Source: a virus
DNA: 20,517 nucleotides
IMG/VR virus record: IMGVR_UViG_3300034198_002953
Location: 1-20,517 of that record
Direction: 5' to 3' (one strand)
Shown here: positions 3,096 through 17,513 of the stretch, one piece after another
How the letters are laid out: every line of letters starts with the position of its first letter
How positions within the stretch are numbered: position 1 is the first letter of the stretch
Position numbers and translations under genes: made by a program
The notes under the pieces: model-generated
What the model saw: the letters and a program-made list of their open reading frames with translations, nothing else
Databases searched by the model: none
What the model was told of the DNA's origin: nothing

Positions 3096-3410
3096 ATGAA
3101 GTATCCTGCATTTGATGGTACACAAAACTGTGTAGACGCTGACGTAGAAATATTTTTCTATGAAGATTGGGAAGGCGAAGGCACAGGTGCTCGCAAACCC
3201 AGGGACAAAAAAGATTTTACAGCAGCTAAAATCATGTGCAGTACTTGTCCTTTCCTAGAACCATGCTTTTTATGGGCATTACACCATGAAAAGTATGGTT
3301 TCTGGGCTGGTACCACTGAAGAAGAACGTGCTAAAATACGTACAGCAAAAGGAATTAAATATGTAAATCCTTTAAAAGATAGTCTATATGTTAAAAGGAA
3401 AAACAGATAA
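3096..3410 (+). CDS. whiB: WhiB-family Fe-S transcriptional regulator
   Basis: 104 residues. The four cluster cysteines are present in the family spacing: C12, then C48-x2-C51-x5-C57. The turn motif GFWAGTTEEER (68-78) corresponds to the G-[VIF]-W-[GA]-G segment, followed by a basic tail (RAKIR, KRKNR) as expected for DNA or sigma-factor contacts. WhiB proteins bind a [4Fe-4S] cluster, associate with the primary sigma factor, and are confined to actinobacteria and their phages. The phage copy probably reprograms host transcription, as described for mycobacteriophage TM4 WhiBTM4. The C12-C48 gap is enlarged by a DWEGEGTGARKPRD loop. The Shine-Dalgarno sequence is weak. This gene is the main evidence for an actinobacterial host. 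Confidence 0.93.
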   Translation: MKYPAFDGTQNCVDADVEIFFYEDWEGEGTGARKPRDKKDFTAAKIMCSTCPFLEPCFLWALHHEKYGFWAGTTEEERAKIRTAKGIKYVNPLKDSLYVKRKNR

Positions 3411-3535
3411 TGGAAAAAAAAGAACACGTTTGTGAACGTACTGATTCCGACTATCAGAACTGTGAAGACTGTGATATTATCTATGAAGATATGAATACAG
3501 ATTTATTAATTATGGAATGGAAGGAATCAAAATGA
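3410..3535 (+). CDS. Hypothetical 41-residue Cys-containing peptide
   Basis: A short ORF from ATG 3410, which shares one base with the whiB stop, to TGA 3533-3535, which overlaps the next start as ATGA (3532-3535). The product is very acidic with Cys8, Cys18 and Cys21 (CERTDSDYQNCEDCDIIYE), a partial zinc-ribbon-like pattern. It fills the space between whiB and the nuclease exactly, and its 3' end carries AAGGAA before the nuclease start. The tight coupling at both ends is the main reason to believe it. Function unknown. Confidence 0.6.
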   Translation: MEKKEHVCERTDSDYQNCEDCDIIYEDMNTDLLIMEWKESK

Positions 3536-3726
3536 TCAAGATAAATGGTTATGATCTACCAGTACATGTTTCTTATTCATCGTTAACTACTTACTTAGAC
3601 TGTGGTTGGAAGTATTACCTAAGTCGCATAGTAAAAGTAAACGAACAGCCAACATGGTATCTTGCTGGTGGTTCAGCAGTACATGAAGCAACAGAAGCAT
3701 ACGACAAGGAGACATGGAATGACTAA
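3532..3726 (+). CDS. RecB/Cas4-like PD-(D/E)XK nuclease, N-terminal part (split gene)
   Basis: 64 residues from ATG 3532, in an ATGA overlap with the upstream gene and preceded by AAGGAA. The sequence HVSYSSLTTYLDCGWKYYL is the classic opening of RecB-family (PDDEXK_1, Cas4, AddB) nucleases: 'S.S.l..y..CP..y'. GGSAVHEATEAYD supplies the conserved GxxxHE helix. Cys24 matches the single N-terminal cysteine that, with three C-terminal cysteines, binds a [4Fe-4S] cluster in Cas4/AddB-type enzymes. The ORF then stops, and the catalytic Asp/Lys and the other cysteines lie in the next ORF in another frame. Either the two chains assemble, a frameshift joins them, or the sequence has an indel. Confidence 0.8.
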   Translation: MIKINGYDLPVHVSYSSLTTYLDCGWKYYLSRIVKVNEQPTWYLAGGSAVHEATEAYDKETWND

Positions 3727-4327
3727 ATATTGGGATGATGCATGGGCAAAAGTACAAAGAGAACAGTTAGATAAAACTAAGATACACCCATCAGAATGGA
3801 AAGCAGCAGGTCGTGCTACCAAAGCCAATCCCAATAAGGAAGATGGTACATGGTGGACAGTCAATGGTAGTAATATGGTTGACTCATGGATTAACTGGCG
3901 TAAGAATGTAGCTTGGAAAATCTGGGAAGCACAACCTGGTGTACCTGCAATTGAACTAGCACTCACTCCAATATGGAATGACATCCCGGTTCAGATGCAC
4001 ATTGACCGAGTCATGGTTACACCAGAAGGTGAACTAGTAATATTAGATATCAAGACTGGTTCTCGTACTCCTAGTTCTGATCTTCAGTTAGGGTTCTATG
4101 CTGCAGGTCTAGAAGCCATGTTAGGTGTCCGCCCACAGTATGGTGCATACTGGATGGCTAGAGAAGGTGGCATAGGTGAGATGATTGATTTGAACAAATA
4201 CACATTAGATGTTATTATTGATCTTGTAACTAAGTTCGATACAGCAAGGAAGCATGAAATCTTTTTGCCTAATCTAAATCATTGTGTAATGTGTGGTTTA
4301 ACTAAAGATTGTAAATGGAAACAGTAA
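3719..4327 (+). CDS. RecB/Cas4-like PD-(D/E)XK nuclease, catalytic part with Fe-S cysteines (split gene)
   Basis: 202 residues from ATG 3719, overlapping the N-terminal ORF by eight bases, with a near-ideal AAGGAG (3706-3711) seven bases upstream. The catalytic elements are visible: D96 in IDR, D110-I-K112 in LVILDIKTG, and the QxxxY motif Q123-LGF-Y127. The C-terminus has C189-x2-C192-x5-C198 (HCVMCGLTKDC), the three-cysteine pattern that closes the Fe-S cluster in AddB/Cas4 nucleases. Such phage enzymes are exonucleases thought to act in recombination or end processing. The missing N-terminal HE motif and first cysteine are supplied by the preceding ORF. The family call is strong; activity of the split form is untested. 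Confidence 0.88.
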   Translation: MTKYWDDAWAKVQREQLDKTKIHPSEWKAAGRATKANPNKEDGTWWTVNGSNMVDSWINWRKNVAWKIWEAQPGVPAIELALTPIWNDIPVQMHIDRVMVTPEGELVILDIKTGSRTPSSDLQLGFYAAGLEAMLGVRPQYGAYWMAREGGIGEMIDLNKYTLDVIIDLVTKFDTARKHEIFLPNLNHCVMCGLTKDCKWKQ

Positions 4328-4338
4328 AGGAAAACAAT

Positions 4339-4788
4339 ATGGAAAAGAATGTAACAGTAACAGTAAAGACTAAGCGTGGTAGCTTGGTTACTTTGCGTGG
4401 TGATACTCCAGAAGAGTTTGTCAACAAAGTAACTGAAGCATACAATGCTGGCTTTGGTTTGGCAGTAGAATCATTTGAAGACTTTGTGTTGTCTACATCT
4501 GTTGATGCAGTTCAGACAGTAGTGGATACACTAGGTGCTACTGTGATTCAGGAAACCGTAGCTACTCAGCCGACTACATTTGCTCCTATCCCACCAGCAG
4601 TAGCAGCACCAGTTGCTACGGGTGGTACAGCAGTACGTCAGTGTGCTCATGGTGTTATGACTAAACGTGAAGGTCAAGGTCCTTATGGTCCTTACAAGGC
4701 GTTCATGTGTCCAACACCTAAGGGTACACCTGATCAGTGTAAGGCTATTTATCTCAAGGCTAATGACCCTGAGTGGCAAACATTCTAG
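4339..4788 (+). CDS. Hypothetical protein with C-terminal Cys/His (zinc-finger-like) motif
   Basis: 149 residues from ATG 4339, preceded by AAAGGA (4326-4331). The N-terminal 60 residues begin with a beta-strand pair (VTVTVKTKRGSLVTLRGDTP) and a helix. A Pro/Ala/Thr-rich linker follows (about 76-98). The C-terminal module has C102-x-H104 ... C124 ... C134 (QCAHGVMTKREGQGPYGPYK, then MCPTPKGTPDQC), a likely metal-binding knuckle of a type common in actinophage early proteins. Its place between a recombination nuclease and a helicase-like ATPase is compatible with single-strand DNA binding or recombination, but that is inference. I do not recognise a named family. Confidence 0.6.
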   Translation: MEKNVTVTVKTKRGSLVTLRGDTPEEFVNKVTEAYNAGFGLAVESFEDFVLSTSVDAVQTVVDTLGATVIQETVATQPTTFAPIPPAVAAPVATGGTAVRQCAHGVMTKREGQGPYGPYKAFMCPTPKGTPDQCKAIYLKANDPEWQTF

Positions 4789-4898: not shown

Positions 4899-5141
4899 AT
4901 GAAAGTCAAAAACATATTTGAATACATGAAAGACTACGACCCAGAAGAAGAAATATCTTGCATTTGGTTTACTCGTGAAGATGCTGAGCGTTGGACTGAT
5001 GAACAGATTGATGATGAAATATGGAACTATATTATAGATGAAGTGGATATTAACGCTGATGATATAACATATGCAGTTCAACATTTAAAAAAATATCGGA
5101 AGGAAAAATTAATTGAAGACGCTAGGTCGGTCAGTAGGTAG
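4899..5141 (+). CDS. Hypothetical acidic protein
   Basis: 80 residues. ATG 4899 has AAGGAG at 4889-4894. An in-frame GTG at 4833 would run through the upstream hairpin and lacks a ribosome site, so I reject it. The sequence is acidic and helical, rich in Trp and aromatics (EEEISCIWFTREDAERWTDE, then IDDEIWNYIIDEVDINADD). No family is recognised. Its last 29 bases overlap the next gene if that gene starts at TTG 5113. It is the first gene after the structured leader. Confidence 0.65.
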   Translation: MKVKNIFEYMKDYDPEEEISCIWFTREDAERWTDEQIDDEIWNYIIDEVDINADDITYAVQHLKKYRKEKLIEDARSVSR

Positions 5142-5898
5142 ACCTGACATAGGTGGAGAACCTATGCCTACCGTGTTCCGTACATTTGAGAACAATCAGA
5201 TAATACTAAGACGAGCAGAAGTAAGTATGATTGCTGGCACTCCCGGTGCTGGTAAGTCAACACTAGCATTAGCATTAGCATTACGTATGGGTGCACCAAC
5301 ACTTTATTTATCAGCAGATACTAACGCACATACAATGGCTATGCGTTTATACTCAATGATTACAGGAGTATCACAACATGAAGCAGAGAAGATCATATCT
5401 GAAGACCCTATTAACTCTCGTAATAAGCTTGCTTTGGCTAGTCATATTTACTGGAGTTTTGATAGTAGCCCAACTCTCGCTGATATTGACGATGAAGTTA
5501 CTGCAGTTGAAGAACTACTTGGAGAATCTCCTGCGTTAATTGTTATTGATAACCTAATGGATATTAGTATGGATGGTGGTGAAGAATTTAGTAACATGCG
5601 TAGTGCATTGAAAGAACTTAAGTATCTTGCTCGTGATACTAATGCTGCCATCCTTGTGTTACATCACACACAAGAAGGTTATGCTGGTGAACCATGTCAG
5701 CCACGTAGTTCTTTGCAAGGTAAAGTAGCACAGTTACCAGCATTGATCCTAACCGTAGGTCAGAACTCAACTGGTTTGTTAGGTGTTGCTGCAGTTAAGA
5801 ACAGGTATGGTAGAGCTGATGCAAGTGGTAAGTCACCTGTGTGGTTACAATTTAATCCTGCTTATATGTTTATAGCAGACTTAGAGGAAGCAAGATAA
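5113..5898 (+). CDS. DnaB/RecA-like ATPase (probable replicative helicase)
   Basis: A P-loop ATPase of the RecA/DnaB fold. Walker A is GTPGAGKS, preceded by the strand EVSMIA; PTLYLSADTNAHTMAMRLYS is the next strand-helix unit; ALIVIDNLMDI is Walker B; AAILVLHHTQEG is the following strand with the sensor His. LILTVGQ and VAAVKNRYGRAD are late RecA/DnaB-core elements. It is a short, single-domain form without a DnaB N-terminal domain, as in many actinophages. Two starts are possible: TTG 5113 with GGAAGGA eight bases upstream (261 residues, used here), or ATG 5164 with GGAG five bases upstream (244 residues). It probably works with the primase ORFs downstream at the phage fork. Confidence 0.85.
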   Translation: MKTLGRSVGRPDIGGEPMPTVFRTFENNQIILRRAEVSMIAGTPGAGKSTLALALALRMGAPTLYLSADTNAHTMAMRLYSMITGVSQHEAEKIISEDPINSRNKLALASHIYWSFDSSPTLADIDDEVTAVEELLGESPALIVIDNLMDISMDGGEEFSNMRSALKELKYLARDTNAAILVLHHTQEGYAGEPCQPRSSLQGKVAQLPALILTVGQNSTGLLGVAAVKNRYGRADASGKSPVWLQFNPAYMFIADLEEAR

Positions 5899-6052: not shown

Positions 6053-6389
6053 AGCAAAACAAAAAGGTACTGCTGCAGAAACTGCAGTAGTTAAATACTT
6101 AAAAGAAAAAGGTTATAAGAACTGTGAACGCAGATCTCTTAACGGGGTTAATGACCGTGGTGATATTGCTGGTATTAAGTCAGTTGTAATTGAAGTTAAA
6201 AACCATGCTCGCATGGAACTAGCCCAATGGATATCTGAGTTACTTGTTGAAATAGAAAATGACAAAGCTAAGACTGGTGTAGTTATACATAAGAAGCGTG
6301 GCACTACCAATGTTGGTGAGTGGTATGCTACTATGCCAGTACATATATGGGTGGAGTTACTAAATGGATTCAACCGTACCAATAAATAG
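6045..6389 (+). CDS. Hjc-like PD-(D/E)XK nuclease (probable Holliday junction resolvase)
   Basis: 114 residues from ATG 6045, overlapping the preceding micro-ORF by eight bases; an in-frame ATG at 6021 lies fully inside that ORF and is less likely. The motif order fits archaeal-Hjc-type resolvases and related phage nucleases: E12 in the first helix (KGTAAETAVVKYL), D40 in DRGDIAG, and E50-V-K52 in VVIEVKN. Length of about 110-130 is usual. It would cut branched DNA during recombination or before packaging. The alternative is a restriction-like or VRR-NUC-type nuclease of the same fold. It lies between helicase and primase genes, consistent with a replication/recombination job. Confidence 0.8.
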   Translation: MSKAKQKGTAAETAVVKYLKEKGYKNCERRSLNGVNDRGDIAGIKSVVIEVKNHARMELAQWISELLVEIENDKAKTGVVIHKKRGTTNVGEWYATMPVHIWVELLNGFNRTNK

Positions 6390-6726
6390 GATTGTTAAAC
6401 ATTATGGTGGTAGAGTCAGAGACAACTACATGGGGTGGCAGAAAATTAAATGTCCATTTCATTCCGATAGCCATGCTTCGGCTGGTGTTTCACTAAGTGA
6501 TAATATCTTTGTCTGTCACGGTTGTGGTATAAAAGGAAATGGATTTAATATTATTAAGTTACATGAAGGAGTAACATATCGTGAAGCTATCAAGATCGCA
6601 GAAAACATTACTGGAGAAAGCTACAAATTATTACGAGGACAGTCTTCCGTTGGCAGAAGAGTATCTTCTCAAGCGAGGAATACCTCTAGAAGTAGCGGAA
6701 ACAATTCGATTAGGAGTCGTCGTTGA
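6364..6726 (+). CDS. DNA primase, CHC2 zinc-binding part (split primase)
   Basis: 120 residues from ATG 6364, overlapping the resolvase gene by 26 bp. The zinc-binding domain of DnaG-type primases is complete: C30-PF-H33 ... C51-HG-C54 (KCPFHSDSHASAGVSLSD, FVCHGCGIKGNGF), followed by the helix KLHEGVTYREAIKIAENITG. After about residue 88 the sequence becomes Ser/Arg-rich (SSVGRRVSSQARNTSRSSG, ending RSRR), typical of out-of-frame translation over the neighbour's coding sequence. The Toprim catalytic domain is in the overlapping next ORF in another frame. Zinc-binding domains like this recognise the single-strand template. Confidence 0.87.
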   Translation: MDSTVPINRIVKHYGGRVRDNYMGWQKIKCPFHSDSHASAGVSLSDNIFVCHGCGIKGNGFNIIKLHEGVTYREAIKIAENITGESYKLLRGQSSVGRRVSSQARNTSRSSGNNSIRSRR

Positions 6727-7198
6727 TCCCTTACCTGGGCAAGAACAATTCATCAACAGATTATCTATTCCTTATATCACACCCTCAGGCGTGGTTGATA
6801 TTAGGTTTAGGTCTATGGGTCCAGAAGAACCAAAGTATCTAGGGTTTCCCGGTACTCAAACTAGGTTATTCAATGTCGCTGCATTACATTCAGCCAAAGA
6901 TTTTATTGCTGTATGTGAAGGTGAGATTGATGCTATAACACTACACTATTTGTGTGGTGTTCCAGCAGTCGGTGTTCCAGGAGTCAACTCTTGGAAGCCA
7001 CACTATACTCGGTTACTACAAGACTTCAATACTGTATATGTATTTGCAGATGGAGATCAACCTGGTATAGACTTTGCTAAGTCCTTATCAAAGGAACTTA
7101 GTAGTGTTATAATTATTAACATGCCAGAAGGTGAAGATGTTAACTCGATGTATCTTCTGCATGGTAGTGATTACTTTAAAAAGAAAGTAGATATGTAA
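6581..7198 (+). CDS. DNA primase, Toprim catalytic part (split primase)
   Basis: 205 residues if GTG 6581 is the start; AAGGAG at 6566-6571 lies nine bases upstream, inside the zinc-finger ORF. SLPLAEEYLLKRGIPLEVAE is the helical linker seen before the catalytic core of phage DnaG-type primases, then VVDIRFRSMGPEEPKYLGFP. Toprim residues are visible: E113 in CEGEIDAI and D157-G-D159 in VFADGDQPG. Together with the upstream ORF it makes one ordinary phage primase, overlapping it by 146 bp. The first 15 or so residues look out-of-frame, so a +1 (or -2) ribosomal shift near 6620-6650 is an alternative to independent initiation. Confidence 0.87.
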   Translation: MKLSRSQKTLLEKATNYYEDSLPLAEEYLLKRGIPLEVAETIRLGVVVDPLPGQEQFINRLSIPYITPSGVVDIRFRSMGPEEPKYLGFPGTQTRLFNVAALHSAKDFIAVCEGEIDAITLHYLCGVPAVGVPGVNSWKPHYTRLLQDFNTVYVFADGDQPGIDFAKSLSKELSSVIIINMPEGEDVNSMYLLHGSDYFKKKVDM

Positions 7199-7766: not shown

Positions 7767-8510
7767 ATGCAGGTAAAGGTAATTGTTTCAGATCTGCAAG
7801 TACCGTATCAAGATAAACGTGCAGTCAATAACTTGGCTGCCTTTATCAAAGCGTTTAAGCCAACTGATGTTGTATCTGTTGGTGACGAAATGGATATGCA
7901 GACTATCAGTCGATGGTCGCAAGGCACTCCACTAGAATACGAACGCAGCATTGGCAAAGACCGAGACGAAACTGTTAGAGTATTAGAACAACTTAAAGTT
8001 ACTCATATGACTCGCAGTAATCATACTGATCGTCTTTACAATTCAATCATGAAGCGATTACCTGGACTGCTTGGTGCTCCAGAGTTTGAGCTTACTAACT
8101 TCTTAAAGCTAAAAGAACTAGGCATTACCTACCATTCAGAGCCGTGGCAGGTAGCACCACAATGGTTGCTACTACACGGCGATGAAGGTAGTACTAGTCA
8201 GACTGGTGGACAGACAGCACTAGGTCTAGCAAAGAAGTCAGGCATGTCAGTAGTGTGTGGTCATACACACAGAGCAGGACTACTACACCATAGTCAGTCA
8301 TATGGTGGTCGTCCTGTTAAAACTGTATGGGGTATGGAAGTAGGCAACCTTATGGATATGCGTAAAGCTTCTTACCTTAAAGCAGGTATTGCTAACTGGC
8401 AACAGGCATTTGGAATCTTGTACATCGATGGAAATAAAGTTACTCCACAACTAATACCAATCCAAAAGGATGGTACATTTGTTGTTGCTAACAAGGTATG
8501 GGGTAAGTAA
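7767..8510 (+). CDS. Metallophosphoesterase (calcineurin-like), phage type
   Basis: 247 residues, ATG 7767 two bases after the upstream stop, with only a weak ribosome site. The metallophosphoesterase motif series is present: VSDLQ (D9), VSVGDEMD (G39-D40), SNH (N85-H86), LLLHGDE (H137) and CGHTH (H166, H168). The first motif reads D-x-Q rather than the usual D-x-H, and the third S-N-H rather than G-N-H. The family hydrolyses phosphomono- or diesters with two metals; phage members sit among replication genes and may process nucleic-acid ends or nucleotides. The substrate cannot be told from sequence. Length is normal for the phage subgroup. Confidence 0.85.
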   Translation: MQVKVIVSDLQVPYQDKRAVNNLAAFIKAFKPTDVVSVGDEMDMQTISRWSQGTPLEYERSIGKDRDETVRVLEQLKVTHMTRSNHTDRLYNSIMKRLPGLLGAPEFELTNFLKLKELGITYHSEPWQVAPQWLLLHGDEGSTSQTGGQTALGLAKKSGMSVVCGHTHRAGLLHHSQSYGGRPVKTVWGMEVGNLMDMRKASYLKAGIANWQQAFGILYIDGNKVTPQLIPIQKDGTFVVANKVWGK

Positions 8511-9163
8511 TGCAAGACTTCTATGATGGGTATAACTATATGGTCAAACAAATTGCTTCTGAGTTTGGTCGTAAATATCCGATGGTAGAGAAAGAAGATA
8601 TACAGCAGGAATTGTGGGTCTGGTTTGCTGAGCATCCAGTTAAACTAGAAACTTGGAACAATGAGCATGAAGAACAAAAAGATGTAGATAAACTGGTTGC
8701 TAGGTCTTTACGTAATGCTGCTCTTGATTATTGTTTAAAAGAAAAAGCCATTAAGCTTGGCTATGATCCTTCCGATAATTTCTTTTACGATAAACAGTTC
8801 ATCAAGATCATGATTCCTGCTGTACTATCTGGTGACTGGTCTAAGATGGCAAACACTTTATCCTCTGACCGTAGGGCTAAGAAAGATTTATCTGAACTAA
8901 ATGACTTGATGGCTTTTAGTGCTGACATTAAAAAAGCATTTGAAAAATTATCATTAGAAGAACAAGTCTACGTAGAACTTTATTACGGAGAAGACTTGAC
9001 GGGTAGTGAGTTAGTCGAAGCTACTAAGTCTAATACAACAGACAAGGCTGCTATCATGAAAGCTAACCGTGCTTTAAATAAAATGGTCAGGTCATTGGGC
9101 GGTACTAAGCCATTCAAAGATAAAGATTATACCTACGGAAAAGAGGAATCAGATGATATGTAA
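8510..9163 (+). CDS. Sigma-factor-like / HTH protein
   Basis: 217 residues; ATG 8510 overlaps the upstream stop (TAATG). EKEDIQQELWVWFAEHP (27-43) and LVARSLRNAALDYCLKEKA (62-80) resemble the region-2 helices of ECF-type sigma factors. The C-terminal part, AFEKLSLEEQVYVELYYGED (143-162) and a following helical segment to about residue 195, resembles a sigma region-4 helix-turn-helix with a typical 'l..Lp.eer..l.L.y' entry. Similar proteins in actinophages are annotated as sigma-like or simply HTH proteins. A role in switching the host polymerase to late genes would suit its position at the end of the early operon, next to the late arm, but this is inference. Confidence 0.65.
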   Translation: MQDFYDGYNYMVKQIASEFGRKYPMVEKEDIQQELWVWFAEHPVKLETWNNEHEEQKDVDKLVARSLRNAALDYCLKEKAIKLGYDPSDNFFYDKQFIKIMIPAVLSGDWSKMANTLSSDRRAKKDLSELNDLMAFSADIKKAFEKLSLEEQVYVELYYGEDLTGSELVEATKSNTTDKAAIMKANRALNKMVRSLGGTKPFKDKDYTYGKEESDDM

Positions 9164-13269: not shown

Positions 13270-14169
13270 TTATAGTGAGTAGTGGATACGAACATTGTTC
13301 TCATCTTGATAACGCTGTGCTTCTTCCTGTAAACGCTGTTGATACAACGCATACAAATATTTAGATGCAGAAGTACCAGCACCGTAAGCACGTCCAGCAA
13401 TCTGTGACTGCTGGTCAGCTTCAGCAGAACCAAAAGTCAAACGACCAGGATCAATAAATGCAGCCAACCTTGCTGCTGCACCAAGAACAATTACATCTTT
13501 AGAAGAAGCAGACAGACCAGTAGTGTACTCAAAGTCATCATTACCATTTTCTAATGTGGTAGGAATGTGCGAGTAATGAACATTGATAGTACGACCTGGC
13601 ACAATACCACTATAAAGAGATACAGTTTTACCACTAGGGTAAGCAGTACGGTCTGCTGCAGTATCAAGACGATACGAACGAATAGGAATCCATTGTTTAG
13701 ATGGACCAATAGACTCATAAGAAATCATAATGATTTTCTTTAATTCTGCAGGTAGTTCATAGGTTAAACGAGCAGGACGATACTTAAATGAATACTGATC
13801 ACTAGCATACAGTTCAGGATAAACTGCATGGATAGTTTCGTTAATAGCAGCTTTAACATCTACCGCTGTGTATGTTGGCGAGATGATAACTTTAGCACCA
13901 CTCTTGTGGCTTGCTGCTGTGGTGCCGTTGTAGCCACGACCATATGGTGGTATAGATAGCACTGAAGTGTCGCGGTTAAATGAGTTGACGTAAATCAATT
14001 CATCATCTATTTGTATTATGCCTGCAGAAATATTTGTTGCATCATCAACAGTTATTGTTGTTGCTGTTGCTGTAATGTCTGCAACTAAATGTGTTTGTCT
14101 ATCTTGGCGTAAAGTAAAGCCTGACAACTTACGAGTTACTTCATCTGCTAACTGATTAAATGTTGGCAT
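13270..14169 (-). CDS. Probable head-tail adaptor / neck protein
   Basis: 299 residues. MPTFNQLADEVTRKLSGFTL opens a helix. An inserted beta-domain (about 25-97: TTITVDDATNISAG, IQIDDELIYVNSF, YGRGYNGTTAASHKSG) follows, then helices VDVKAAINETIHAVYPELY (103-121) and KDVIVLGAAARLAAFIDPGR, and a long C-terminal helix (ALYQQRLQEEAQRYQDEN). A helical bundle with a beta insertion and long terminal helix is the general pattern of gp6/gp11-type connector adaptors that join portal to tail. That assignment is from fold pattern, not clear motif identity; a tail-attachment protein is the alternative. The inserted domain resembles one in the adjacent tail fibre. The start overlaps the upstream stop by one base. 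Confidence 0.55.
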   Translation of the reverse strand: MPTFNQLADEVTRKLSGFTLRQDRQTHLVADITATATTITVDDATNISAGIIQIDDELIYVNSFNRDTSVLSIPPYGRGYNGTTAASHKSGAKVIISPTYTAVDVKAAINETIHAVYPELYASDQYSFKYRPARLTYELPAELKKIIMISYESIGPSKQWIPIRSYRLDTAADRTAYPSGKTVSLYSGIVPGRTINVHYSHIPTTLENGNDDFEYTTGLSASSKDVIVLGAAARLAAFIDPGRLTFGSAEADQQSQIAGRAYGAGTSASKYLYALYQQRLQEEAQRYQDENNVRIHYSL

Positions 14170-17100
14170 TACTTACCTTTCACTAATGATTCTATGTAAT
14201 CTTTAATTGCTTGGCGACCAGATTCTTTTAAGTCACGAGTACCTATACCAGCAAATGATTTAAACTTAGGTGGTAAGCCAGCTTCTTCAAATACTGTTCC
14301 ATTCCATTTAAACCATTTAGAAACAGACTGATCAAAAACATGAACAGGTATACCTTTATCAATACCCATTTGCATACCCCATCTAGTTCCACTTGATGTA
14401 GTTTTTTTATTAGCAGAAAGTCTTTCAACAATTGCAATAACAGCATCAGAGTCTTTAACTTGATAATAATTTCTTAACACAAGATCATTGTCTGAAGGTC
14501 TAACACCAAGATTTCTTGCAGCTTTTTCAATAAATGGTTTAGCTTTATTAATCTCTTCTTTAGTGTAAATAATTCTTTCTTCAAGTGCTGGTCTTGTACC
14601 AGTAAATCCTGCAGAATTAGGATTTAATTTTTCATGACCAACAAAACTATGACCTTTAGTTACAATGCCAACTTCATCGGCAGCTTTAGCCCAAGCAGTA
14701 TCTGAACCACCTGCTCCACCAGAATGCACAACAATGTCACTAGTTGCTTTTTTTGATGTAGTCTTAGAAATTAACTCTGGATGTTTATCTAGATATTTAA
14801 TTGCTTTAATAATTACCTGACCATGACAAGCATCATTAGGTTCAGATCCTGGACAAGCAAGTCGTTTACCTTTAAGGGCATAAAGTTCTTTAGCATATTC
14901 TGGATCAGATTTAATTTTGTCCCATAACCAAGAACTATATTTATCAACTGCTTCTTTAACAGTAACGCCATTACCAACAGGAAATGGATTGCCAAACTTG
15001 CCTTTGTCTCCAGAACCACGACCAATATAAACAACATCTTTTTGTTCAGCAGAAGTTAAACTCTTCCATCTAACAACATTACCAACTTCATCAATAGTTT
15101 TCCTAGTTTCTCTGCCAATTAAATCACCAATTTTAGGATCAAATCTAACATTACTTGGAGTTCTAGAAATTAAACTGGCAATATCTTCAGGAGAATGACC
15201 AGCAAGACCAGTACCTAAAGCACTAAAGAAAAATCTTTCATCAGGATGTGCTTCAGCATAATTAAGAAATTCATCAATATCTTTCTTAATACTATTAAGC
15301 GGAAGACCTTTATTAATCTTAAGATCCTTAGTAGGAATAGCATAAGATTGACCCTGTCTACCTTTAGCCTGACCCTGTTTAGCACCAAACTTTTCTCTAG
15401 CTTCTAATGCTGCACCCTTACCATGGCGACCTTCAAGGTTAGAACCAAACACAAGGACTTCATCATCTGCCGCTTTACTCCAACTTGATGGTTCTGTTTT
15501 AGTTTTCTTTTCAACTACTTCAGCAGGTTTAGTTTTAGCAAGAGCTTCTACTTTAGCTTTAGTTGCAGCAAGACGTTCTTCCTTAGATAAACCATCAGCA
15601 ACAACTTCTGGTTTTTTGGGTTCAGGTTTAGCCATAGCCTGTACCTTAGCTAAAGTTTCTTCATTGCGAGTTAAAGGTGCATTGCGTTCAAGACGTTTTT
15701 GCATTTTTAATTTGTTCTGTTGTTTCGCTACATCTTTTTCAATAGAAGAAAGTCGTTTGCCTAAAGTAGCAACAGATCGTTTAACATCATCAGCTTTAGC
15801 TTGCCTAAAAATATCACGTAGCAATTCAAGATAAACATGATGATCTAATAACTCAAGTTCTTCCAAAGGTCTTGAGTTTAATTGTTTAACAAAATATTTA
15901 ATACCATTATCATCAAGGTCTTTAACAAATGATTTAACTGATTCAATATGTTTTGATTGCAGTCTATTAAGATCTGCAAGTTCATCTTGATATCCTTGTA
16001 TTACTTTAGTATATTCTGCCAATTGTTTTGGATCATCTAAATTATATTTAGATTTAATTAACTGTTTATATTGATTGCTTTCAGGAAGAAAAAGTTTTTC
16101 TTCTCTAGCAATAATATTTTTAACATGTTTAATTCTATCAAAAAGTAAAACTTTTTTAGTTTTTACACTATTAACATAAACATCATTTACAAGTTTATAA
16201 GGAGTAACTTCACTTGTTGGAATAAGTTCTTTAGTTATTTTATTGGAAGTTTTACTATCAATTGTAGGTACAACAATTTTAAAAATATTATCAACAATAT
16301 CTTTTTGACGTTGTTTTTCAATTGCTAAGGCAGCATGTCTAGTAATCTTGGAACTACGTAAAGCATTCTGTAATTCATTTTGTGCTAAACGATAAGAACG
16401 TTTATAACGAGCAACTTCTTCAGGAGTTCCATTTATTGTAACTTGAAGTAAATTTTTAGCCTCTTGTATTACATCTGTTTGTAGTTCAGGAAGATAAGAT
16501 CGAGCAGCACTACCATATTGTTTAGGCTTTGGAACAATGTCAAGGTCTTGTGCTGCTGTTGATGGTTGATCTGGAACATTTAAATTTTGAAGTTCGGTTT
16601 CAACAATGTTGCCATCTTCATCTAAAGTAGTTTTATGTTGAACTGCCCAATCAAGTTTTTCTTTAAGATTAATATCTTGACCACGCTCATAATTATGTTC
16701 AGGACCATCATCAGTAATATGAACTTCTTTAAGAACATCTTCATCAATGTTGCCGACATGATCATTCCATGCTTTAATATAATCTTCGCCATGACCAGCT
16801 CGTCTAAGATTATCAACTTCTTCTTGAGTTAAATTAGGATACTTAGGGTACTTTGTACCTTTTCGCATTTCACTCATTGTTAAACTTACATCTTTTAATT
16901 CATCAAGAGTATCAGCTTGTTGAGCATTAGGAGCAGTATCAGTAAGACCTTCTTCATATAAACTTCGACTAATGCCATTACCTTCTTTAGCTGCTTCGGC
17001 ATGAGCTGCCATGCTAGCTTCAAAATCATGAGGTAATTTACCAGTAGCAAAAAAATGATCTGCTTCTTTTGGAAGATCACGAAGTTTAAAAACTGTAGCT

Positions 17101-17513
17101 TCAGGATCATTCGCATGAATGTCAGTTAAACGAATTAATTCTGTATGTTTTTCTGGATTGTCTAAAAGATATTTTGCATTTTTTGCTGTTTTTAAAGCAG
17201 CACTTTTAGCAGCAGCACTAGCAGTATCAGACGCAGTAATTTCTGCGGCATGAACAATAATAGACTCTAATGGTTTAGCAGCAAACTTTAATAATTTAAC
17301 AGGTGGAATAAAGAATGAAGCAGCAGTAATACCAACAGCAGCAGCATCTCCCCAACCACCTTCACCACTAAATAAACGACCAATAGATTTAGTAGCAAAA
17401 AGAAAATCAGCAACATCTGCTATGTGACCCCAAAGACCTTTATCATCAGGCAACTGAGAAGGAGTCGGTGATGGTTCAGGACTAGGACTAGGTTCTACAT
17501 TAAGAACAGTCAT
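14169..17513 (-). CDS. 1114-residue probable virion protein with C-terminal macro-like, DUF4326 and SLOG-like domains
   Basis: Residues 1-25 are a Pro/Ser tract (SPSPEPSPTPSQ). Residues 30-110 include hydrophobic/Ala-rich segments (AAAVGITAASFFIPPVKLL), and 110-680 are charged helices with coiled-coil character and a Lys/Pro/Ala-rich linker. Then come three compact domains. (1) 685-793: VLVFGSNLEGRHGKGAALEA with N692, G698-K-G-A-A, later ALGTGLAG (765-772), matching the A1S_2505 'phage non-structural protein' family and resembling macro domains. (2) 813-912: VVYIGRGS, FGNPF (840-844) and ACHG (895-898), matching DUF4326. (3) 925-1112: VVHSGGAGGSDTAW, NYYQVKDSDAVIAI, SGTRWGMQMGIDKGIPVHVF and FAGIGTRDLKE, a SLOG-like Rossmannoid. 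SLOG and macro folds bind nucleotide ligands such as ADP-ribose derivatives. Position among virion genes suggests packaging and ejection with the DNA; an effector role is inference. Confidence 0.8.
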   Translation of the reverse strand: MTVLNVEPSPSPEPSPTPSQLPDDKGLWGHIADVADFLFATKSIGRLFSGEGGWGDAAAVGITAASFFIPPVKLLKFAAKPLESIIVHAAEITASDTASAAAKSAALKTAKNAKYLLDNPEKHTELIRLTDIHANDPEATVFKLRDLPKEADHFFATGKLPHDFEASMAAHAEAAKEGNGISRSLYEEGLTDTAPNAQQADTLDELKDVSLTMSEMRKGTKYPKYPNLTQEEVDNLRRAGHGEDYIKAWNDHVGNIDEDVLKEVHITDDGPEHNYERGQDINLKEKLDWAVQHKTTLDEDGNIVETELQNLNVPDQPSTAAQDLDIVPKPKQYGSAARSYLPELQTDVIQEAKNLLQVTINGTPEEVARYKRSYRLAQNELQNALRSSKITRHAALAIEKQRQKDIVDNIFKIVVPTIDSKTSNKITKELIPTSEVTPYKLVNDVYVNSVKTKKVLLFDRIKHVKNIIAREEKLFLPESNQYKQLIKSKYNLDDPKQLAEYTKVIQGYQDELADLNRLQSKHIESVKSFVKDLDDNGIKYFVKQLNSRPLEELELLDHHVYLELLRDIFRQAKADDVKRSVATLGKRLSSIEKDVAKQQNKLKMQKRLERNAPLTRNEETLAKVQAMAKPEPKKPEVVADGLSKEERLAATKAKVEALAKTKPAEVVEKKTKTEPSSWSKAADDEVLVFGSNLEGRHGKGAALEAREKFGAKQGQAKGRQGQSYAIPTKDLKINKGLPLNSIKKDIDEFLNYAEAHPDERFFFSALGTGLAGHSPEDIASLISRTPSNVRFDPKIGDLIGRETRKTIDEVGNVVRWKSLTSAEQKDVVYIGRGSGDKGKFGNPFPVGNGVTVKEAVDKYSSWLWDKIKSDPEYAKELYALKGKRLACPGSEPNDACHGQVIIKAIKYLDKHPELISKTTSKKATSDIVVHSGGAGGSDTAWAKAADEVGIVTKGHSFVGHEKLNPNSAGFTGTRPALEERIIYTKEEINKAKPFIEKAARNLGVRPSDNDLVLRNYYQVKDSDAVIAIVERLSANKKTTSSGTRWGMQMGIDKGIPVHVFDQSVSKWFKWNGTVFEEAGLPPKFKSFAGIGTRDLKESGRQAIKDYIESLVKGK

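Follow-up and report, generated by a model that had tools for sequence, protein, structure and literature searches.

A Cas4/AddB-type nuclease predicted to be assembled from two phage-encoded chains

Described nucleases and the gene pair of the window

Fe-S nucleases of the Cas4, AddB, Dna2 and EXO5 kind have been described as single chains in which a metal cluster staples the ends of the nuclease domain, and the purpose of this cluster is debated. To our knowledge, all described Fe-S nucleases of the Cas4/AddB type consist of one polypeptide, a feature that is not part of their definition by sequence or fold. The Cas4 protein Sso0001 is a 5'-to-3' ssDNA exonuclease, and replacement of any of its four cysteines resulted in insoluble protein (PMC3466216). 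In a phylogenomic survey, members from mycobacterial and Propionibacterium phages are placed in the pfam12705 branch; the word "split" is absent from this survey (PMC5704561). The closest phage relatives of the locus described here are the "Cas4 family exonucleases" of actinobacteriophages (PHROG 1870), for example Veracruz gp68, PHL152M00 gp36, Manuel gp62 and Espica gp57, which contain the same domain at full length, with the four cysteines and the active-site residues, and lie near a DnaB-like helicase like the gene pair studied here. They are uninterrupted polypeptides, whereas here two genes encode the parts on either side of a cut behind the HxxxE helix. In our searches of the literature (open-licence papers), no split Cas4-like nuclease was described.

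The DNA analysed, hereafter the window, is a 20.5-kb metagenomic virus fragment. The two ORFs, named N chain and C chain, and their likely translation signals are as follows.

3521-3525, + strand: AAGGA, likely ribosome-binding site of the N chain, 6 bases before ATG 3532
3532-3726, + strand: N chain, 64 aa, ATG 3532, stop codon 3724-3726; carries Cys24 (putative first cluster ligand) and G47-x3-H51-x3-E55 (RecB-type motif I)
3706-3711, + strand: AAGGAG, likely ribosome-binding site of the C chain, within the N ORF, 7 bases before ATG 3719
3719-3726, + strand: overlap of the N and C ORFs, 8 bases, C frame +1 relative to N
3719-4327, + strand: C chain, 202 aa, ATG 3719, stop codon 4325-4327; carries E79, D96, D110-x-K112, Q123-x3-Y127 and C189-x2-C192-x5-C198

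Nearly all of this agrees with the initial annotation, which had placed Cys24 in the first ORF and the motifs from D96 to C198 in the second, and had noted the +1 frame, the 8-base overlap and the AAGGAG in front of the second ATG. Its "GxxxHE" helix in the N ORF is indeed a helix, but the "HE" has to be corrected: residue 52 is variable (E, T, A, L, V, R and others) and the conserved motif is GxxxHxxxE.

The N chain matches positions 1-50 of PF12705 (PDDEXK_1; E 2e-6) and the C chain positions 117-189 (E 3e-7). Each half is above the cut-off of 22 bits (28.3 and 31 bits), and the artificially joined chain scores 62.7 bits. PHROG 1870 (exonuclease) is likewise matched in tandem, at 11-66 by N and at 78-287 by C (E 2.5e-47). 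Because the two ORFs align one after the other to a single Pfam model and to a single PHROG, their pairing is not attributable to chance. With profile scores above the gathering score, the catalytic His, Asp, Asp-x-Lys and Gln/Tyr motifs spread over both chains, and a nuclease core flanked by one cysteine on its N-terminal side and three on its C-terminal side, the two ORFs are, as judged from sequence, jointly one PD-(D/E)XK nuclease of the Cas4/AddB type. PHROG 31737, a short "exonuclease" family of 146 aa, matches the N half only (window 3532-3723, profile positions about 46-92), and may be home to further nucleases that are similarly cut or truncated.

A PDB sequence search with the joined chain gave nothing significant (best E 0.095, for AdnA), so that comparison by fold was needed. 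The chains were joined by reading the four-base word TAAA at the junction as one residue, which is a modelling device only, and the alignment (A6) contained single-chain homologues and C chains, the former being the sole source of its N part. The AF2 model of this joined chain is one fold (pLDDT 93.6, pTM 0.89), which suggests that both sequences make up one domain and says nothing on the binding of free chains. By fold it corresponds to the RecB-like domain of Fe-S nucleases. Its nearest PDB matches, spanning nearly the full joined length (1-264), are AdnA (Z 16.6), ACE1 (16.2), AddB (14.4), Dna2 (13.1) and Cas4 (12.6); 3L0A (13.0) is also matched. In the model the cut falls in a loop between the HxxxE helix (42-59) and the next helix (66-82), and single-chain homologues span this loop with a few residues.

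Among solved structures, the nuclease domains of AddB and AdnA are the closest known systems, and AddB has the same arrangement, with a single cysteine close to the N-terminus and the other three at the C-terminus (PMC3466216). These domains are the C-terminal parts of single-chain helicase-nucleases of about 1000 aa, while the split nuclease has no helicase part. CRISPR Cas4 (Sso0001 and the type I-C Cas4) is similar in fold (Z about 11-12.6), four-cysteine layout and RecB motifs, but is a single chain. The joined chain just passes the PF01930 cut-off (23.0 versus 22.7 bits) and fits PF12705 better. Among the window proteins scanned around the gene pair no cas gene product was recognised, Cas1 and Cas2 included; replication genes and a WhiB regulator were found.

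Distribution, conservation and origin of the split

Relatives were collected from viral-contig scans with the C chain, a C alignment and an N alignment, and from one bacterial-genome scan, and the two halves were called with separate profiles. The collection comprises at least 248 sequences, counting the window and four phage records. N and C are separate ORFs in at least 226 loci, at least 128 of them distinct, contrary to the single polypeptide of all described members known to us; the split lineages counted here are a minimum. Among the matches listed, N lies upstream of C on the same strand in all split loci, each half is accompanied by the other wherever the contig is long enough, and the C-only loci of the clade all end at a contig edge. 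One contig repeats the window junction and is 99.88% identical over 9.3 kb (11 differences, no gaps), so that it comes either from the window's own virus population, sampled a second time, or from a near twin. Another (92-94% identical to the window) has the same junction. The bacterial-genome scan gave only four relatives, of which L086 is split.

The halves are also separate ORFs in two cultured phages, OX376641 (LanE43-AprF5) and OX376640 (LanE43-AprE7). The bacterium infected by these phages is abundant in freshwater. The records agree in size with Planktophila phages LanE43AprF5 (38.9 kb) and LanE43AprE7 (39.1 kb), whose isolation host was "Ca. Planktophila" strain LanE-43, a member of the freshwater order "Ca. 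Nanopelagicales"; WhiB-like and sigma-70 genes are reported in both phages (PMC10202952). The window contains genes of both kinds, found by profile search, in addition to a helicase gene discussed below.

3096-3410: WhiB-like gene
5113-5898, + strand: DnaB-like helicase (phrog_243); split and single-chain forms both have it as a conserved neighbour downstream
8510-9163: sigma-factor-like gene

The host of the window virus could thus be related to that of the Planktophila phages. Elsewhere in the window, a 1114-aa protein is encoded among structural-type genes (14169-17513, - strand); by eye, its C-terminal part seems to consist of several small enzyme-like domains.

The residues expected of a functional nuclease are retained in both halves. 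Among the matches listed, C24, G47, H51 and D58 are kept in 130/130 copies, and E55 in 128/130 (Asp in L310 and L312). E79, D96, D110, K112, Q123 and Y127 are present in all 129 copies that reach them, and C189, C192 and C198 in all 127 complete copies. Comparison of close relatives by the Nei-Gojobori method, outside the overlap and omitting pairs whose synonymous sites were saturated, gave median dN/dS values of 0.09 (N) and 0.15 (C). Purifying selection thus acts on both halves.

Single-chain versions occur in phages of Cutibacterium, Propionibacterium, Mycobacterium, Streptomyces and Rhodococcus, and in viral contigs (L074, L078-L080, L249-L307). A 56-row tree places 32 split rows in a single clade (support 100/97). 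L086 and L310 fall outside it, so that the tree needs three changes. When all split rows were held together, p-AU was 0.04, and 0.06 and 0.09 without L310 or L086, which are long-branch rows. A single origin of the split is weakly disfavoured, and it is possible that the gene was cut at the same place more than once. In L310-L313, N and C overlap by one base. In L086, an actinobacterial contig from Phytoactinopolyspora halophila, the halves (1812-2012 and 3932-4588) both match PF12705. They are separated by about 1.9 kb that contains several small ORFs, and a DnaB-like helicase follows downstream; from these neighbours, L086 is probably a prophage.

Junction geometry and alternative explanations

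The geometry of the junction between the halves is variable. Among the matches listed, C start and N stop overlap by 1 base in 36, by 4 in 31 and by 8 in 22 of the 128 distinct loci; 3 abut, 2 overlap otherwise, and in 34 the C frame opens after the N stop, with a gap of 9-1901 bases (start codons were picked by rule, so that small distances are approximate). All three relative frames are present, in 75, 32 and 21 of these loci. N ends at the same point everywhere and is 61-71 aa long among the matches listed. In the nine gapped loci inspected, the intervening small ORFs are of several unrelated kinds:

L008 and L034: 35-36 aa CxxC protein
L016 and L043: 62-64 aa protein
L059: 48 aa
L066: 114 aa
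L071: 171 aa
L056: 107 aa and 218 aa

This variability bears directly on the idea, raised by the initial annotation, that a programmed +1 frameshift joins the two ORFs into one protein. In the window alone this would be attractive: the frames differ by +1, a strong Shine-Dalgarno-like AAGGAG just before the junction could stimulate frameshifting, and a single-chain form exists in relatives. What a +1 frameshift gene is expected to have is a conserved overlap with a slippery site, and the geometry is instead variable. Close relatives differ in overlap, gap and frame, which makes a shared frameshift signal impossible; many loci have only 4 bases from the opening of the C frame to the end of the N stop, and where gaps containing other ORFs separate the halves no frameshift could join them. 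Joining by frameshift is therefore contradicted, and we regard it as highly improbable. A sequencing or assembly error, or a decaying pseudogene, would be a natural suspicion for a metagenomic virus fragment, and the initial annotation had named an indel at 3700-3730, or uninterrupted proteins in all close relatives, as what would undo the split. Neither is borne out. The close relatives are split, not fused, the same split is present in 128 distinct loci among the matches listed, and independent genomes show the junction again, two cultured and separately sequenced phages among them; moreover, both halves are under strong purifying selection and keep every catalytic and ligand residue, so that error or decay can practically be dismissed.

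The halves could instead act apart, with a C chain in which the first motif is missing or substituted and an N chain that serves as a separate regulator or DNA-binding protein. The distance of up to about 1.9 kb in L086, with unrelated genes intervening, would fit this. It is nonetheless quite improbable, as N retains exactly the residues needed by a RecB-type active site and cluster, ends at one point everywhere and, among the matches listed, is never found without C where the contig is long enough, nor C without N. A different alternative accepts that the two chains are one nuclease and concerns the metal: the four cysteines might hold zinc or a [2Fe-2S] cluster, or be purely structural. We consider this unlikely, given that several of the best structural matches (AddB, Dna2 and Cas4) are described in the literature as Fe-S proteins. 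It is favoured by the [2Fe-2S] cluster reported for Pcal_0546 (PMC4176176) and by 3L0A, a relative from E. rectale that is among our structural matches and for which zinc is reported (discussed in PMC3466216). By sequence, [4Fe-4S], [2Fe-2S] and zinc would not be distinguishable.

Two other origins of the interruption were considered and rejected. Stop-codon readthrough is not general: abutting halves in one frame occur only in L120-L122, where the N stop TAG is directly followed by an in-frame TTG start of C. An intron or intein would need space between the halves, and most of them overlap. Rfam gave no intron match in seven gapped loci, and inteins or homing endonucleases had no PHROG match in seven intervening ORFs and no Pfam match in five.

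Proposed assembly, role and significance

The many junction geometries, together with the conserved pairing and residues, argue for the two-chain reading that the initial annotation had also offered. The gene pair very probably encodes an obligate two-chain PD-(D/E)XK nuclease of the Cas4/AddB type. Most likely the chains assemble into one nuclease with the metal cluster bridging the subunits; the physical association, the shared metal cluster and the nuclease activity of the pair are what we infer from the data above. Both genes would be carried on one phage mRNA, and the overlap and the internal Shine-Dalgarno sequence may translationally couple the C chain to the N chain. The latter would provide the N-terminal helices, the catalytic His/Glu motif (H51/E55) and one cluster cysteine (C24), and the C chain the catalytic core (D96, D110, K112 and Q123) and three cysteines. 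The chains would then pair into one nuclease domain, pairing would complete the active site, and a cluster formed by C24 and the three cysteines of the C chain may lock the pair, acting as an inter-subunit staple that holds the enzyme together. Since the cluster and active-site residues are divided between the chains, the enzyme probably works only once its halves have joined. In the nitrogenase Fe protein and in DPOR, metal clusters are held between subunits. The ligands of these clusters come from two chains, as proposed here, but the proteins are neither nucleases nor products of a split domain.

A DnaB-like helicase gene lies downstream in 40/40 split loci with enough DNA, with primase genes beyond, and the single-chain homologues of cultured actinophages are also encoded near DnaB-like helicases. 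Given this place beside helicase and primase genes, and relatives that resect DNA ends, the likely role of the pair is DNA-end processing in phage replication or recombination. Two other features of this region were observed. The gene 3' of C (4315-4788, + strand) has its start codon within the C ORF and is the next gene after C in 104 of 115 split loci; its product is weakly similar to gp49 of mycobacteriophages L5 and D29 (PF25690, below cut-off). The primase of the window is likewise divided between ORFs that overlap and are read in different frames (6364-6726 and 6581-7198, + strand), one with a CHC2 zinc ribbon (phrog_360) and the other with a Toprim domain, and such a CHC2/Toprim pair is also present in L074, L078, L071, L056 and L082.

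For annotators, our results mean that two short ORFs should be read as one enzyme. The cultured Planktophila phages that carry the split nuclease are deposited without annotation in the collection searched. Taken as a whole, we find it fairly probable that this is a heterodimeric Fe-S nuclease, in which a divided domain has its active site and a [4Fe-4S] cluster completed in trans (one plus three cysteines), in which cluster assembly would couple pairing to activity, and which is fixed in a large phage group related to the cultured "Ca. Nanopelagicales" phages, the cut perhaps being repeated in L086 and in L310-L313. A staple placed across two chains would offer a natural way to ask whether loss of the cluster, or of one chain, ends pairing, DNA binding or cutting.
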